Below the pieces are notes generated by a model that was given only the letters and a program-made list of their open reading frames with translations, searched no databases and was not told the DNA's origin. Below, in pieces: positions 8,013 to 13,252 of a DNA stretch of 23,887 bases (position 1 is its first letter; every line of letters starts with the position of its first letter). Source of the DNA: a virus; the IMG/VR virus record IMGVR_UViG_3300017751_000232, positions 1 to 23,887 of that record; one strand, written 5' to 3'. The translations under genes and the position numbers were made by a program.

Positions 8013-8357
8013 TTATTGCTCAATCTTATGAAGCAATTGTGTCTTGTAGTCTGTTTCAAACCTACATTCTATTTGACTAAAAAATTCTTCAAATGTTTTG
8101 AAATCATCAGTAGATCCGCAAGAGGAGAGCTCAACCCAAATATATTTGTATTCGATCCAATAATGAACAGCGAAATGAGATTCAGACAACAAATACAACC
8201 CTGTAAATCCTCCATTATCAAATATGTGATCGATTGATGACACAACATTTAATGAGGTTTTATTATCTATAAATTCCTTGACACGATGCCAAAATACTAT
8301 AATGTCAAAATTATCCTCATGATACAAGTTCCACGCTTTGCAATTAATCAATTTCAT
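8013..8357 (-). CDS. S-adenosylmethionine decarboxylase-like protein (114 aa)
   Basis: The central segment (NGGFTGLYLLSESHFAVHYW, then IEYKYIWVELSSCG) matches the core of prokaryotic class 1 AdoMet decarboxylases, which self-cleave to a pyruvoyl enzyme and make decarboxylated AdoMet for spermidine synthesis. The cleavage serine (Ser60, in E-S-H), the histidine five residues on (His65) and the cysteine 20 residues after the serine (Cys80) are all present with the family's spacing. Length is close to the usual 115-135 aa. The start at 8357 is chosen because AGGGG lies 9 bases upstream; an ATG at 8372 is possible. It overlaps the end of the methyltransferase gene by 14 bases. No spermidine synthase is seen in the window. 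Confidence 0.8.
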   Translation of the reverse strand: MKLINCKAWNLYHEDNFDIIVFWHRVKEFIDNKTSLNVVSSIDHIFDNGGFTGLYLLSESHFAVHYWIEYKYIWVELSSCGSTDDFKTFEEFFSQIECRFETDYKTQLLHKIEQ

Positions 8358-9687
8358 CTTCCAACCCCTCATATGAGAATTCAGTAAAGTTCTCTTTTAT
8401 ACGCTTCTGATCTCCTTTGTAGAATACAAGAACATTTTGATGTGTGCGCCCAACCTTTCGGCTTGCATTCATATAATTTTTAACTCTAAGTTGTAAATTA
8501 CCCATTACATTTATCAAAATTATTTCATTCCAATATTGATAGCCCGCTTCAACCATAAACTGAATGGTTTTTGGAACGACACTGATATATTCGCCTGTTT
8601 TTTTATCTCTAACTTCTGAAATCACGATACAAGCAAAGCGATTGTCTTTTAAAACACTATAAGTATTTTGCAGTACACTTTTAAACACATCAAAGAAATC
8701 ATCGTGTTTCATGTTAGATAAATCTCTTGGATCATCACTATACTGTTCGAGATCAGCATAAGGGGGGCAAGAGAAAATCATATCTACACTGTTCGGATCA
8801 ATATACTTATTAAGGTTTTGAGCGTCATCATTATAATACACACAATCCAACTCAGATGTTCGTTCGTTATTTAAACGCGCTTGCTCTTCTCGCAATTCCG
8901 TCCCTCTAAATTTTCTTTCCAAACTGCCCGCAACATATCCAAAAACAGTATCTCCAGCAAATGGATCGAAGCATAGCCAGCCTTTTTCGGAAAACCAAGT
9001 AACTAGTATTTCGGCTAGCACCGCATCCAAAAGAGATACAGATTTTTGTGTTGTTTTCGACCCTTGCAAATATCCACTTTGGTGCATAAATTTAGATGTT
9101 GATAAAGTGCCTTCTCTTGATTCCCCATTATCTCCAATAAATGAATTCCAATACCTTTTACGCTCTTGCCACCTCCCCGATCTAGTATCCAAAATAGACA
9201 CAGGCGGAACAACAAAAATATCAGATAAAACATTTATTGGTTGCTCTTTATTTTCTCCAAATAAATCAGGGTCGTCAAAGCCTTGTAACAGTTCATCAAG
9301 TTCTTCATCCTCAAAACCAAGCACGTCCAGATCTTCGCCCTGCTCTTTCAAGCCAGTAAGAAGATCAGACAGTTGATCTGTATTCCAGTCTGCTTTTTCT
9401 CCAAGTTTGTTATCAGCAATCATCAACAATTCAGCATCAACAGGAGAGAGATCCACATACACAACAGGCACAGTTTCAAGCCCGATTTGCTTGCTTGCCT
9501 TGAATCTCGTATGACCTGCCAAGATCGTCCCGTCTTTATTGGCTACAATCGGGCTAGTGAATCCGAAGCGCTTGATCGAGTTTGCGACACTATCAACAGC
9601 GTGATCGTTGTGTCTTGGGTTCTTGTGATGTGGATGAAGTTTGTCGATCCGTACAAACTCGCCCACTTTCTGATCTTCTGTGCTCAT
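8344..9687 (-). CDS. ParB/sulfiredoxin-domain protein fused to a DNA methyltransferase (447 aa)
   Basis: Residues ~10-100 form a ParB-like nuclease/CTPase-fold domain (LHPHHKNPRHND, AGHTRFKA at 57-64, MIADNKLGE). Residues ~215-425 form an N6-adenine/N4-cytosine DNA methyltransferase: AdoMet motif FDPFAGDTVFG (240-250), an acidic residue in RGTELREEQ, and the catalytic SCPPY (306-310). ParB-methylase fusions are familiar in phages and are thought to modify phage DNA. The AdoMet motif lacks the usual G-S-G-T after FAG, so activity should be checked. The start overlaps the upstream ribbon-helix-helix gene by 4 bases (ATGA). The methyltransferase half is more AT-rich and poorer in GATC than the ParB half, which suggests a mosaic origin. 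Confidence 0.92.
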   Translation of the reverse strand: MSTEDQKVGEFVRIDKLHPHHKNPRHNDHAVDSVANSIKRFGFTSPIVANKDGTILAGHTRFKASKQIGLETVPVVYVDLSPVDAELLMIADNKLGEKADWNTDQLSDLLTGLKEQGEDLDVLGFEDEELDELLQGFDDPDLFGENKEQPINVLSDIFVVPPVSILDTRSGRWQERKRYWNSFIGDNGESREGTLSTSKFMHQSGYLQGSKTTQKSVSLLDAVLAEILVTWFSEKGWLCFDPFAGDTVFGYVAGSLERKFRGTELREEQARLNNERTSELDCVYYNDDAQNLNKYIDPNSVDMIFSCPPYADLEQYSDDPRDLSNMKHDDFFDVFKSVLQNTYSVLKDNRFACIVISEVRDKKTGEYISVVPKTIQFMVEAGYQYWNEIILINVMGNLQLRVKNYMNASRKVGRTHQNVLVFYKGDQKRIKENFTEFSYEGLEDEID

Positions 9688-9875
9688 TTAATCCCCTTGT
9701 GTTCTTTCTTGATTGCATCTCTTACGATTCTGCTTTTGCTCTTGCCTGTTCTGTCGTGTAGTTCTTTCAGCTGCTTCATGCTGTCAGGTGTCATTGATAT
9801 ACAGATATTTTTTGTCTTCACTGTAGCCCCATGACAATCACAGGGATCACAATCACAAGCAGGGCACGCGCTCAC
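9684..9875 (-). CDS. Ribbon-helix-helix protein with a cysteine-rich N-terminus (63 aa)
   Basis: Residues ~22-58 (ICISMTPDSMKQLKELHDRT then GKSKSRIVRDAIKKEH) form a CopG/Arc-type ribbon-helix-helix, a dimeric DNA-binding fold used by repressors and by plasmid ParR-type proteins. The first 16 residues hold five cysteines and a histidine (CPACDCDPCDCH), a likely metal-binding patch that is unusual for this family. The start is a GTG overlapping the preceding stop (GTGA), so translation depends on the 75-aa gene upstream. It may be a regulator; a link to the 11-base repeat arrays at 12431-12582 is inference. Confidence 0.75.
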   Translation of the reverse strand: MSACPACDCDPCDCHGATVKTKNICISMTPDSMKQLKELHDRTGKSKSRIVRDAIKKEHKGIK

Positions 9876-10099
9876 CGTCGCACCAAATAAAGGCGATCGG
9901 CTACGTGCTGCAGTATGATCTTTCTACAATACACAGCAGGATCTTCGTTGTGTGCAACTTGTGCAAGTACGTTGATCTGTTGCATTTGTACAGGTGTGAG
10001 ATCTATCTGTAGCCCTAAGACTTCGACAGGAGTTTCTTGCTTGTGTGCTTGCTCTCTGTCTGTCTGTTTAATTTCTTTTGTTTTTCGTTTTGTTGGCAT
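9872..10099 (-). CDS. Probable second ribbon-helix-helix protein (75 aa)
   Basis: After a basic, glutamine-rich N-terminal arm (PTKRKTKEIKQTDREQAHKQ) comes VLGLQIDLTPVQMQQINVLA followed by EDPAVYCRKIILQHVADRLY. This fits a beta strand plus two helices, as in ribbon-helix-helix proteins, although the match is less clear than for the neighbour it overlaps. AGGGGAATAA precedes the ATG, and the gene starts one base after the stop of the 64-aa gene. The pair may form a heterodimer or two separate regulators. Confidence 0.65.
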   Translation of the reverse strand: MPTKRKTKEIKQTDREQAHKQETPVEVLGLQIDLTPVQMQQINVLAQVAHNEDPAVYCRKIILQHVADRLYLVRR

Positions 10100-10361: not shown

Positions 10362-11333
10362 TCAATGCTTTGTATCCGATGGAACATAAACCATATTATC
10401 AACAATATGCGCCTGTACTTTGTTTCTGTGTGCGCTTCTTGCTTGCTCTGCCTGATCATGTGCTTGACCTGCCCCAAAGGCATCAGCAAGAGATACAGGC
10501 TTTTTGTACTTTCTTGGATCTTCGTCGATCTTTGTTTGTATTCGTTGCCGTTTCTGTATGTTACGCCCTGCTGTATATCCGTTTATGTCTTGGCGTGTCT
10601 TTTGGTATTTCTGTTCGATCTCAGGTGGCATTGTGAAGCCGTATCTTTGACACATCATCGATCCAAATACACTACTCCAAAGAGGATGATCCCAACAAGG
10701 ATAGTGCAGCCCCTCATCCTCTCCAAACTCAGGATCTCCATATCTGATTATTCCATCGTTGATCTTCTTCTCCCAGTGGTGTTGGCTTTGCTCTTGTGCT
10801 GTTACGATTCGATCTTGATCAGCGTCGTAGTAGCTGCAATGTATTTCAGCAAAATTATCCTGTGCTCTCATCCAGTCCATGATCTCTAAGTATGATTGTA
10901 CTGTCTTCTTAGATGCTAGATCACAAGTGCAAGCCCCCTTGTAATGTGCTTCTGCTTTGCGTTGCATAGATTGACGGAATCCATAGAAATAGACTTCGCG
11001 AAATCCTCCCTCTTTGCCGTCGCTGTCTGTTCTGCAGTGTTCGCAATATGTCTGATCGAGGGGTACGCTGTGCCAGTGCATTTTGAAATCGTGCCTGCTC
11101 TGCATGTACTCAGCAACTTTCTTGATTGTTGGCAGCCATTCCATTTCATTCATTAGATAGTCTTGAAATGAATGAATCAAGTATGTTTCGGGGATGTTCT
11201 TAAACTTCTTGATATACAGCGTGTATTGTGATTTGATCCAAAATGTATTTTTGTTGTAGTGGTCAGAGAGATTCGACAAGAATCGAAAAACGATCTGCCC
11301 TCGTTTGGTTGTTACATAGTCAGGGTATTTCAT
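10362..11333 (-). CDS. Zinc-ribbon protein, possibly replication-related (323 aa)
   Basis: Four cysteines are arranged CxxC (Cys97, Cys100) and CxC (Cys135, Cys137), with an acidic and glycine-rich segment after the first pair. This pattern is typical of a zinc ribbon. The N-terminal ~80 residues are helical (FRFLSNLSDHYNKNTFWIKS, then WLPTIKKVAEYM), reminiscent of the N-terminal halves of phage replication initiators or helicase loaders. No Walker motif or nuclease motif is visible. The C-terminal part is basic and glutamine-rich. Its position in the leftward early operon fits a replication role, but that is inference. AACAACAACGGAGCAAAT sits before the ATG, which overlaps the preceding stop (TAATG). 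Confidence 0.75.
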   Translation of the reverse strand: MKYPDYVTTKRGQIVFRFLSNLSDHYNKNTFWIKSQYTLYIKKFKNIPETYLIHSFQDYLMNEMEWLPTIKKVAEYMQSRHDFKMHWHSVPLDQTYCEHCRTDSDGKEGGFREVYFYGFRQSMQRKAEAHYKGACTCDLASKKTVQSYLEIMDWMRAQDNFAEIHCSYYDADQDRIVTAQEQSQHHWEKKINDGIIRYGDPEFGEDEGLHYPCWDHPLWSSVFGSMMCQRYGFTMPPEIEQKYQKTRQDINGYTAGRNIQKRQRIQTKIDEDPRKYKKPVSLADAFGAGQAHDQAEQARSAHRNKVQAHIVDNMVYVPSDTKH

Positions 11334-11527
11334 TATTTGCTCCGTTGTTGTTTTGCTAGTTTCAATAATCGTCTAGCTGTGTTGTATGATAGTTTGTTTT
11401 CTTTTGCGTATGCTGTCAAGTTGATCTTTTGTCGTCGTAGTATCATCAAGTACAGCTGTGAATAATGCCATACAGCCTGCTGATCCTCTTCTAGCAGGCT
11501 GATCGGCATCTTGATATACAGATCCAT
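11333..11527 (-). CDS. Small helix-turn-helix protein (64 aa)
   Basis: Residues ~34-60 (INLTAYAKENKLSYNTARRL) read as a helix-turn-helix in which NKLSYNTARRLLKLAKQ would be the recognition region. The N-terminal half (LEEDQQAVWHYSQLYLMILR) is helical and hydrophobic and suggests dimerisation. The gene is joined to both neighbours by one-base TAATG overlaps at 11333 and 11527, so the three proteins are made together. It may be a transcription regulator or a DNA-binding partner of the zinc-ribbon protein. Confidence 0.7.
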   Translation of the reverse strand: MDLYIKMPISLLEEDQQAVWHYSQLYLMILRRQKINLTAYAKENKLSYNTARRLLKLAKQQRSK

Positions 11528-11742
11528 TATCTTACGCGCTGTGCGTTGTACTGGATACAGCGATCAAACGTACAGTAATAGATCACCACTGAATAAGTAT
11601 GATTGGCACATTCTGAAAGTACATACCACCGTTCAGCCTTGAAAGTGTGATCTTGATTCTGTGGAATACTGCCATACATTCCAAGAAAGCGATCGTATGA
11701 TATAGCCCGATAATGTGCGTTGATTGTTTGCATTGTGTGCAT
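11527..11742 (-). CDS. Small ORFan (71 aa)
   Basis: From the ATG at 11742 the protein reads MHTMQTINAHYRAISYDRFL onward, with an RWYVLSECANHTYSVVIYY beta-rich centre and a short CTFDRCIQYNAQRVR tail. There is no recognised motif. The start is decided by ACAACAACAACGGAGCATATC directly upstream. The longer frame to 11817 would translate the intergenic hairpin and leader and is rejected. It is the second gene of the leftward early operon. Confidence 0.68.
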   Translation of the reverse strand: MHTMQTINAHYRAISYDRFLGMYGSIPQNQDHTFKAERWYVLSECANHTYSVVIYYCTFDRCIQYNAQRVR

Positions 11743-11764
11743 GATATGCTCCGTTGTTGTTGTG

Positions 11765-11782
11765 GCGGGGGATTGCTCCCCC
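11765..11782 (-). terminator. G/C hairpin between the ArdC-N gene and the 71-aa gene
   Basis: GGGGGAGCAATCCCCC on the minus strand forms a compact hairpin with CAACAAC-type leader sequence on both sides. It lacks a clear T-run after the stem, so it may be a partial terminator or an RNA-stability element. Confidence 0.5.
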
Positions 11783-11791
11783 TGTTGTTGT

Positions 11792-12142
11792 TTATGCTCG
11801 TTCACAGATTTGATCAAGTTGCTGCAATGATAAGGCTGTGAAGTCGTCTGCTGTTTCTGCTTCCATCAAGTCTGATTCTGTTACGATCTTGGCTACCTGT
11901 GCAATGTTGAATACTGTATAGTATCTTGGTACAAGTTTTTGCTTATGCTCTTTCTTACAGATGATCTTTACCATCTTTGTAATCCGCTCGCCCTTTTGTC
12001 CTTTCTGTACTTGATACCCTAGATCCTGCCATTGTCTATATGTTGCCCATACTTGATCGGTGTAGTCATTCTGTAGAAGAATTGTTGTATTTCCTCCTGT
12101 GTATGCTTTGCCTGTCTTTGCGTTTGTTGGTTGAGTTGTCAT
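11792..12142 (-). CDS. ArdC-N-terminal-like protein (116 aa)
   Basis: The segments TNAKTGKAYTGGNTTILL, WATYRQWQDLGYQVQKGQKG and YYTVFNIAQV follow the pattern of the ArdC N-terminal domain, a single-stranded-DNA-binding module found in plasmid anti-restriction proteins and phage primases. The usual C-terminal metalloprotease part (HExxH) is absent, so this is the domain alone with a short acidic tail (ESDLMEAETADDF). The start at 12142 follows ACAACAACAACGGAGCACAAC; the longer frame to 12169 would read through that leader. It is the first gene after promoter G. A role in protecting incoming DNA or in replication is plausible but not shown. Confidence 0.78.
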   Translation of the reverse strand: MTTQPTNAKTGKAYTGGNTTILLQNDYTDQVWATYRQWQDLGYQVQKGQKGERITKMVKIICKKEHKQKLVPRYYTVFNIAQVAKIVTESDLMEAETADDFTALSLQQLDQICERA

Positions 12143-12173
12143 GTTGTGCTCCGTTGTTGTTGTGTACATATTT

Positions 12174-12216
12174 ATAGTAATGTATTCGATCAGGTATTGC
12201 CAACATATTTATACAA
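12174..12216 (-). promoter_or_regulatory. Box-type promoter G, driving the leftward early operon
   Basis: Minus strand: box TTGTATAAATATG (12204-12216), abutting -35 TTGGCA (12198-12203), an 18-base spacer, and -10 TACTAT (12174-12179). A second, partial box (TATAAATATG) overlaps and follows the -10. It is the most likely promoter for the genes from 12142 leftward. Confidence 0.7.
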
Positions 12217-12430
12217 ATAGAAGAAATTAAATTATAGAAAGTTAGATAGATAGCCCGATCATCTTGCAAAAATGGGGATTGTAGGATATGATCGTTTTAG
12301 GATCTTCTATATAATTTGGAGTACCTCACTTTTTTCCTATCTGTCTAACTGGCTATAAATTTAATTGTAATTATGGTTATTATTATTATGTCGACGTATC
12401 TCCCTGTATTCCTTGCACTTTTTTCTCCTT
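12217..12430. other. AT-rich non-coding stretch of the central control region
   Basis: About 210 bases without a convincing gene on either strand. It includes GGCTATCTATCTAAC (minus strand, near 12241-12256) and TCTGTCTAACTGGCTA (near 12340), two members of a short dispersed motif family described in the findings. Beyond that and its AT-richness I see no clear structure. Its position between divergent operons and beside the repeat arrays would suit an origin or transcription control. Confidence 0.5.
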
Positions 12431-12485
12431 TTTGTGTTGTGTTTGTGGGCTATTTGTGGGATGTTTGTGTTGAGTTTGTGGGCTT
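12431..12485 (+). repeat. Array 1: five TTTGTG repeats at exact 11-base spacing
   Basis: TTTGTG begins at 12431, 12442, 12453, 12464 and 12475, so every unit is exactly 11 bases. The units are TTTGTGTTGTG, TTTGTGGGCTA, TTTGTGGGATG, TTTGTGTTGAG and TTTGTGGGCTT. One helical turn per unit would present all copies on the same DNA face, as expected for cooperative protein binding. Confidence 0.92.
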
Positions 12486-12527
12486 AAAAAAATATATGCA
12501 ATGATTACAGGGGGTTAGAGGGCTGGA

Positions 12528-12582
12528 TTTGTGGGGTGTTTGTGGTCTATTTGTGGGCTGTTTGTGTTTGATTTGTGTTTGA
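12528..12582 (+). repeat. Array 2: five TTTGTG repeats at exact 11-base spacing
   Basis: TTTGTG begins at 12528, 12539, 12550, 12561 and 12572, again every 11 bases and in the same orientation as array 1. The units are TTTGTGGGGTG, TTTGTGGTCTA, TTTGTGGGCTG and two copies of TTTGTGTTTGA. The last two copies overlap the -35 region of the rightward promoter, so a bound protein should affect transcription of the exonuclease gene. The 42 bases between arrays (12486-12527) are A-rich then G-rich and could hold another weak promoter (TTGAGT at 12470, TATATG at 12493). Confidence 0.92.
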
Positions 12583-12596
12583 TACTATTTTATACA
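12568..12596 (+). promoter_or_regulatory. Rightward promoter for the DnaQ-like operon
   Basis: TTGATT (12568-12573), 17 bases, then TATACA (12591-12596), lies about 70 bases before the ATG of the exonuclease gene. The -35 is embedded in the end of repeat array 2. A TATACT at 12610 is an alternative -10 without a well-spaced -35. Confidence 0.55.
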
Positions 12597-12664
12597 ATCA
12601 ATACAGGCGTATACTGTGCGATTTCGCTATATTTTGTATAGAATACACAACAATGGAGCTAAGA

Positions 12665-13252
12665 ATGAAATACATAGTCATAGACACAGAAACAACAGGA
12701 TTAGACGCTCGCAAACATGAAATGCTATCTTTGGGCGCTATGGTAATGATTGACGGGGTCATAACTGAAACGATAGAAGTCAAGATCCGACCTCGCAACA
12801 TTGATCAGGCTGATCCAAAAGCCTTACAAGTGAATGGGTATTCAGCGTATAGATGGAAGAACGCGATCGAGGGTGAATATGCCAACAGTATTATCAAGCA
12901 TTTTCTCATATCACATCAAGACGGGATCTTGGTTGGGCACAATGTAAACTTTGACATCAAGTTTTTACGCGCCTTTGCTGATGAGTTTAACACTGAATAC
13001 ATGATCCCAACTCCATACATTGATACAAGGGATGTCTGTAGGGTCAATCTTGCCCCGTATGGCTGTTCTAGCATGTCGCTAGACAATATATGCCTGTTCT
13101 TAGGCTGGAAGCGTAGAAAGGCACATACAGCCCTTTCAGATTGCGAAGATTGTATTAAGATCTTAAGGTGTATGTGCCCACCCTCTCCAAAGTTTATTGC
13201 GTATCTTCGTCTTAGAGGGATGATCGCACGCTTCAAAGGATTGATCTCATGA
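12665..13252 (+). CDS. DnaQ-like DEDDh 3'-5' exonuclease (195 aa)
   Basis: All five DEDDh residues are visible: Asp7 and Glu9 in IDTETTG, Asp97 in GHNVNFDIKFL, and His154 with Asp159 in HTALSD. This is the fold of DNA polymerase III epsilon and RNase T, which remove 3' nucleotides from DNA or RNA. Length is typical for a free-standing exonuclease. The start at 12665 is used because GGAGCTAAG lies just upstream; the frame extends to 12575 but that part would overlap the repeat array. The gene begins the only rightward operon in the centre of the window and overlaps the next gene by 4 bases (ATGA). It may act in replication, recombination or host-DNA breakdown. Confidence 0.93.
   Translation: MKYIVIDTETTGLDARKHEMLSLGAMVMIDGVITETIEVKIRPRNIDQADPKALQVNGYSAYRWKNAIEGEYANSIIKHFLISHQDGILVGHNVNFDIKFLRAFADEFNTEYMIPTPYIDTRDVCRVNLAPYGCSSMSLDNICLFLGWKRRKAHTALSDCEDCIKILRCMCPPSPKFIAYLRLRGMIARFKGLIS

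Follow-up and report, generated by a model that had tools for sequence, protein, structure and literature searches.

Two sets of five phased 11-bp repeats at a probable replication origin of an uncultured phage group

Introduction

The direct repeats of parC, the centromere of plasmid R1, are 11 bp long. They are arranged in two sets of five (PMC4949242), and the stbDRs of plasmid R388 consist of two sets of five 9-bp repeats spaced 2 nt apart (PMC3098194). Plasmid iterons are phased with the DNA helix (PMC5043065), and the replication origins of phage SPP1 combine direct repeats with an AT-rich unwinding element, a binder and a loader (PMC6316719). Here we examine one whole virus record from IMG/VR (IMGVR_UViG_3300017751_000232; 23,887 bp), hereafter the window, beyond which there was no sequence to search. 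An initial annotation of the window likened two arrays of 11-bp repeats to R1 parC and offered a segregation site, a replication origin and an operator array as possible functions. The replication origin is the option that our analysis supports best, whereas the headline comparison with parC is not supported. Judging from its sequence and conservation, the intergenic element at ~12360-12605 that contains the repeats is likely an iteron-type origin of phage replication.

Results

Each array consists of five 11-bp units (Table 1). All ten TTTGTG starts listed in the initial annotation are present on the + strand with exact 11-bp spacing in a 5 + 5 arrangement, and the gap of 42 bp between the arrays was likewise confirmed, with array starts that are 97 bp apart. 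Across 1000 dinucleotide-shuffled versions of the local 300 bp, chains of a single 6-mer at 11-bp spacing reached at most 2, compared with the chain of 5 that is observed twice in the window. Lag-11 matches per 44 bp reach 34 in the window, compared with a mean of 19.7 and a maximum of 29 for the shuffles, and the top lag-11 peaks in the window are the two arrays. The 5 + 5 periodicity of TTTGTG is therefore far above chance. An Rfam search of 12001-12800 returned no match.

When IMG/VR was scanned for four phased TTTGTG words, 34 loci were identified, and the intergenic element of the window is present in 17 of them. Scanning for the near-invariant AATTTGGAGYAYCTCAC recovered more members, in which the flanks are retained and the repeat word is altered, and a profile scan with F0, a protein encoded close to the element, added L066, L070 and L071. 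The conserved element with its arrays is found in ~25 contigs in IMG/VR that belong to a single uncultured phage group, and the source phage is probably marine. Two relatives look complete, because G001 (29,865 bp) has an exact terminal repeat of 127 bp and the start of G002 (29,953 bp) is repeated near its end. In both of these ~30-kb genomes, the element gives the top lag-11 peak, and nothing except the 11-bp arrays produces a strong lag-11 signal. Cultured phages showed neither a DNA match nor a match to F0, the plasmids searched gave no match, and prokaryote genomes contained no relative of F0 or TerL, so that the host was not found.

Members of the group fall into three clades with different repeat words (TTTGTGGGCTA, AGTGTTGGCTA and TTTTATGTCTA), for which the unit consensus is TTTGTGgkCWR in clade A, AGTGTTGGCTA in clade B and TTTwwTgTCtA in clade C (L066). 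Unit identity is 0.74/0.64/0.53 within a genome and 0.39-0.49 between clades. The frame around the words is fixed. Box 2 is an inverted repeat in the inter-array spacer of all loci compared. In 22/22 loci from the three clades, 106 bp separate it from the end of the (ATT)n stretch, with array 1 in the same frame, and array 2 starts 31 bp from the start of box 2, again in 22 of 22 loci and all three clades. Array 2 of L070 is one 11-bp unit longer than that of L046, which indicates that the register is preserved even when the length changes; array 2 of clade C has three good units rather than five. Because the word changes while the 11-base rhythm and the distance to the melting stretch do not, the resemblance of this element to a plasmid centromere looks superficial.

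Phased direct repeats and an adjacent, putative AT-rich unwinding element at a fixed distance, both expected of an iteron origin, are present in the element. Using duplex stability computed from nearest-neighbor energies, we found that no 40-bp segment of G001 or G002 is less stable than the (ATT)n stretch (at 9687 and 15561, respectively), and that the lowest-stability 200 bp of the window is located at 12189, within the same intergenic region as the arrays. Boxes that match TGYAAYGATT flank array 1 in inverted orientation, and most clade A members have a third one after array 2. In the window and L040, where the gene for the Cro-like protein F1 is missing, box 2 is intact but boxes 1 and 3 are degenerate, and F1 is a possible binder of the boxes. 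In the L066 region ~2120-2420, where the element is on the reverse strand, an inverted repeat of ~30 bp (TTTGTGTAAYGATTYTARGTACTTAGA) surrounds array 1 and is longer than in the other clades.

The leading candidate for an array-binding protein is F9, a small helix-turn-helix (HTH) protein encoded in the leftward operon beside the element. Its structural model is a four-helix HTH with a mean predicted local distance difference test (pLDDT) score of 90, and its sequence has no match in the PDB. The predicted recognition helix is YNTARRLL in clade A (L035 has YNKARRLL), YTTARRLL in clade B and YVTIRRLY in clade C, such that a single residue (N/T/V across the three clades) tracks the repeat word and is constant inside each clade. 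F1 was considered as the array binder and rejected, as it is absent in the window and 36% alike in L011, yet the TTTGTG word persists. The initial annotation had also named two ribbon-helix-helix proteins, of which the product of 9684-9875 is indeed CopG-type (Pfam E = 1.4e-6), whereas that of 9872-10099 matches neither Pfam nor PHROGs and resembles this fold by eye only. L011 and L066 retain the arrays yet have no homolog of the former at its place. The presumed DNA-reading strand of the latter varies within clade A (QD, SK, TT, TE and AQ, by eye), which disfavors this protein as the reader of one fixed word. Taken as a whole, the evidence points to F9, which probably binds the arrays, although we do not claim proof.

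Next to F9 is encoded F0, a candidate helicase loader. F0 has no sequence family match, and its AlphaFold model is middling (pLDDT 72, predicted template modeling score [pTM] 0.43). For residues 8-84, lambda P ranks first among 667 aligned chains (Z 6.0, 3.2 Å over 76 residues) and DnaD second (Z 4.6); past these two, the fold matches are unrelated helical folds. F0 also matches a viral model annotated as G39P N-terminal protein. By elimination, F0 appears to be the main larger reading frame of G001 that is neither structural nor an assigned enzyme. We infer that replication starts at the element, with F9 as the binder and F0 as the loader. Phage initiator molecules, probably F9, would occupy adjacent iterons, ten in all, along one helix face, as the 11-bp phasing suggests; the bound complex would open the AT-rich (ATT)n stretch adjoining array 1; and F0 would load the host replicative helicase at the opened stretch.

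We also examined arrays outside of this phage group. Without the relatives, the loci of the first IMG/VR scan comprise 13 independent groups, and in 4 of the 13 (L008, L010, L017 and L029) the TTTGTG array is within a gene for which the PHROGs annotation is DnaD-like helicase loader or replication initiation O-like. These (TTTGTGN5)n arrays are always on the strand opposite the initiator gene. The chance of at least 4 arrays in initiator genes is ~1e-4 to 3e-3, a rough estimate that assumes that the initiator gene makes up 2-5% of the genome. Among cultured phages, Staphylococcus phi575, IME1361_01, Vibrio 1.133 and Enterococcus EH-TP1, for example, have 11-bp arrays of other words within the DnaD-like gene, and the 11-bp arrays in DnaD/replication genes of cultured phages adjoin ATT-rich tracts; Vibrio 1.167 and SL25 have a 23-bp period instead of 11. 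Taken together, arrays in the initiator genes of other phages are the strongest outside support for reading the repeats as origin iterons. A separate phage group (L025 6514-6563 and L032 2557-2606) has a single intergenic array of five 11-bp TTTGTG units with flanks that are alike, and no initiator gene was recognized near the array in either locus. On a large phage contig, five TTTGTGTAACT units lie directly upstream of a T4 gp32-like gene (L039 262-316).

The gene order common to the group begins with TerL, small genes, a ParB_N-methylase gene, the ribbon-helix-helix gene, a second small gene and F0, and continues with F9, F2, the ArdC-like gene, the element, the Cro-like gene, the DnaQ-like exonuclease gene and tail genes. 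In most relatives the Cro-like HTH gene separates array 2 from the DnaQ gene; it is absent from L040 and from the window (12583-12664). The window gene for the ParB_N + N6/N4 methylase (8344-9687) encodes 447 amino acids, compared with 550-555 in G001 and G002, and its methylase domain seems shortened. An S-adenosylmethionine decarboxylase-like gene at 8013-8372 of the window (Pfam E = 8.5e-12) is not in the gene lists of G001 and G002.

Table 1. Features of the element and of neighboring genes in the window
Feature	Coordinates	Strand	Remarks
CopG-type ribbon-helix-helix protein	9684..9875	-	Pfam; not at its place in L011 or L066
Conserved small protein, ribbon-helix-helix-like by eye only	9872..10099	-	homolog in all loci that cover its place
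F0, 323-aa protein, candidate helicase loader, with Cys motif	10362..11333	-	N-terminus resembles lambda P most and DnaD second; also a G39P-like viral model
F9, 64-aa HTH protein, candidate iteron-binding initiator	11333..11527	-	present in every locus covering its place
F2, conserved small protein, same leftward operon	11527..11817	-	
ArdC N-terminal-domain (anti-restriction-like) protein, first gene of leftward operon	11792..12169	-	Pfam E = 1.8e-16
TATAAT + near-invariant TTTGGAGYAYCTCAC, possible rightward promoter	12310..12329	+	by eye; not reported by window scan
AT-rich (ATT)n stretch, putative DNA unwinding element	12363..12390	+	fixed distance to box 2; stability in relatives
Box 1	12405..12417	-	inverted box 2 copy, degenerate in window: TGTATTCCTTGCA; TGTAATCATTGCA in L020, L044, L070
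Array 1	12431..12485	+	five 11-bp iterons: TTTGTGTTGTG TTTGTGGGCTA TTTGTGGGATG TTTGTGTTGAG TTTGTGGGCTT
Box 2	12497..12509	+	TGCAATGATTACA, imperfect dyad; retained in all clades with small changes
Array 2	12528..12582	+	five 11-bp iterons: TTTGTGGGGTG TTTGTGGTCTA TTTGTGGGCTG TTTGTGTTTGA TTTGTGTTTGA
Box 3	12593..12605	+	degenerate copy, TACAATCAATACA; many relatives have TGCAGTGATTACA
DnaQ-like 3'-5' exonuclease, first rightward gene	12665..13252	+	Cro-like HTH gene precedes it in most relatives

Discussion

Several observations weigh against assigning replication initiation to this element. The covariation of F9 with the repeat word is based on two or three clade differences, and neither F9 nor F0 has a sequence match to known replication proteins. 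PHROGs matches to F9 are weak and include terminase small subunits, and a profile comparison with a DnaD-like winged-HTH set aligned on the HTH and was not significant (E = 0.055). The lambda P match to F0 (Z 6.0) was obtained with a model of pTM 0.43 and is inside the range of common helical arrangements. Furthermore, the 40-bp stability minimum of the window is not the (ATT)n stretch, GC skew shows no clear turning point or origin signal, and DnaA boxes are not consistent among the loci. A DnaA-dependent origin was rejected, as a TTATACACA pair is found at the element only in L045/L050. Finally, known O-type origins are often inside the initiator gene, and the element of the window is intergenic.

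An operator array is an unlikely alternative, in which a protein bound to the ten repeats switches the divergent leftward (ArdC-F2-F9-F0) and rightward (F1/DnaQ) operons, with replication beginning elsewhere. The element does lie between divergent operons with promoter-like sequences on either side, and cooperative repressors often use phased direct repeats. The possible rightward promoter, whose TATAAT is 17 bp from a -35 TTGATC in relatives, was not seen in clade C. However, the initial annotation had placed a promoter over array 2, and our scan of 12100-12720 does not bear this out: it yielded two promoter-like sites, compared with a shuffle mean of 2.5, and neither is on array 2, or on array 1. 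The invariant spacing links the AT-rich stretch, the boxes and the arrays, whereas the rightward start region is not equally far from array 2 in all clades, and the arrays of L070 and L046 differ by a whole 11-bp unit. The window has lost the F1 gene and its promoter region yet retains the arrays. A role as operator also leaves the arrays inside the initiator genes of other phages unexplained.

Very improbable is a segregation site that needs no motor, at which a StbA-like F9 would coat the repeats and hold the phage genome at the nucleoid. The R388 stbDRs are also two sets of five, and StbA provides stability without an ATPase partner (PMC3098194). KorA, ArdK and the DNA-binding domain of StbA (7pc1, Z 4.3) are among the fold matches of F9, and an ArdC-like gene adjoins the element, but the fold matches form one tied group of many HTH proteins. 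The proteome scan revealed no relaxase or stb operon, and integrase (PF00589) had no match in six records, which include the two ~30-kb genomes, with a positive control; these scans therefore give no sign of a plasmid life style. A centromere, moreover, needs no fixed distance to a melting stretch.

An actin-like or tubulin-like NTPase, which the initial annotation suggested looking for, was not found in the six records. ParA-type (PF13614) and tubulin (PF00091) profiles had no match there, with positive controls; PF06406 (ParM) likewise had none, but its controls were also silent; and a Pfam scan of all reading frames of G001 showed no actin-like NTPase among the matches listed (25 of 30 families). 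The similarity to R1 parC thus extends to two sets of five 11-bp direct repeats and not to a promoter-like site in the spacer, where the window scan found none, or to an NTPase in the records searched. A ParMRC-type centromere, with a ParR-like ribbon-helix-helix protein on the arrays and a filament-forming NTPase, is strongly disfavored despite two small ribbon-helix-helix or similar proteins encoded ~2.5 kb away, since no ParM, ParA or tubulin match was obtained (with the PF06406 control silent), one of these proteins is missing from L011 and L066, and the other varies in its strand residues inside one word clade.

The likely origin would thereby be located for a whole uncultured phage group, in which nature has provided an unusually clean experiment: ten sites whose word differs across three clades, spacing that does not shift by even one base and an adjoining 64-aa candidate binder. 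This makes the co-evolution of initiator and iterons directly testable. A tentative and rather doubtful extension is that the group has a minimal replicon, in which a free-standing 64-aa HTH protein replaces the DNA-binding domain of O/DnaD-type initiators and the word within a rigid two-by-five frame is swapped wholesale between lineages, perhaps for independent replication of co-infecting relatives.

The comparison with known systems also carries a caution. A centromere (R1 parC), a stability site that needs no motor (R388 stbDRs) and what is probably an origin all have the two-by-five 11-bp layout, so function cannot be read from this layout by itself; its occurrence in both R1 parC and the R388 stbDRs indicates that it has been reached more than once, and its presence in the latter means that it is not diagnostic of ParR/parC. 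Unlike R1 parC and ParR-ParM, the window has no NTPase that was found and no promoter-like site between the sets, and its ribbon-helix-helix gene is not always present in relatives. The R388 stbDRs resemble the window in the two-by-five count and the 11-bp period, and the candidate binder F9 is a small HTH protein like the binder of R388. However, the R388 repeats are unrelated in sequence (TTGCATCAT), the proteome scan showed no stb operon, and the window has an AT-rich stretch at a fixed distance and a replication-like gene next door. Like SPP1 oriL/oriR and the lambda ori, the window has phased direct repeats by an AT-rich stretch together with a predicted DNA-binding protein and a loader-like protein. 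In contrast to those origins, its element is intergenic, with two sets of five repeats and inverted boxes around set 1, and its candidate binder is a separate 64-aa HTH protein rather than the N-terminal domain of an initiator.
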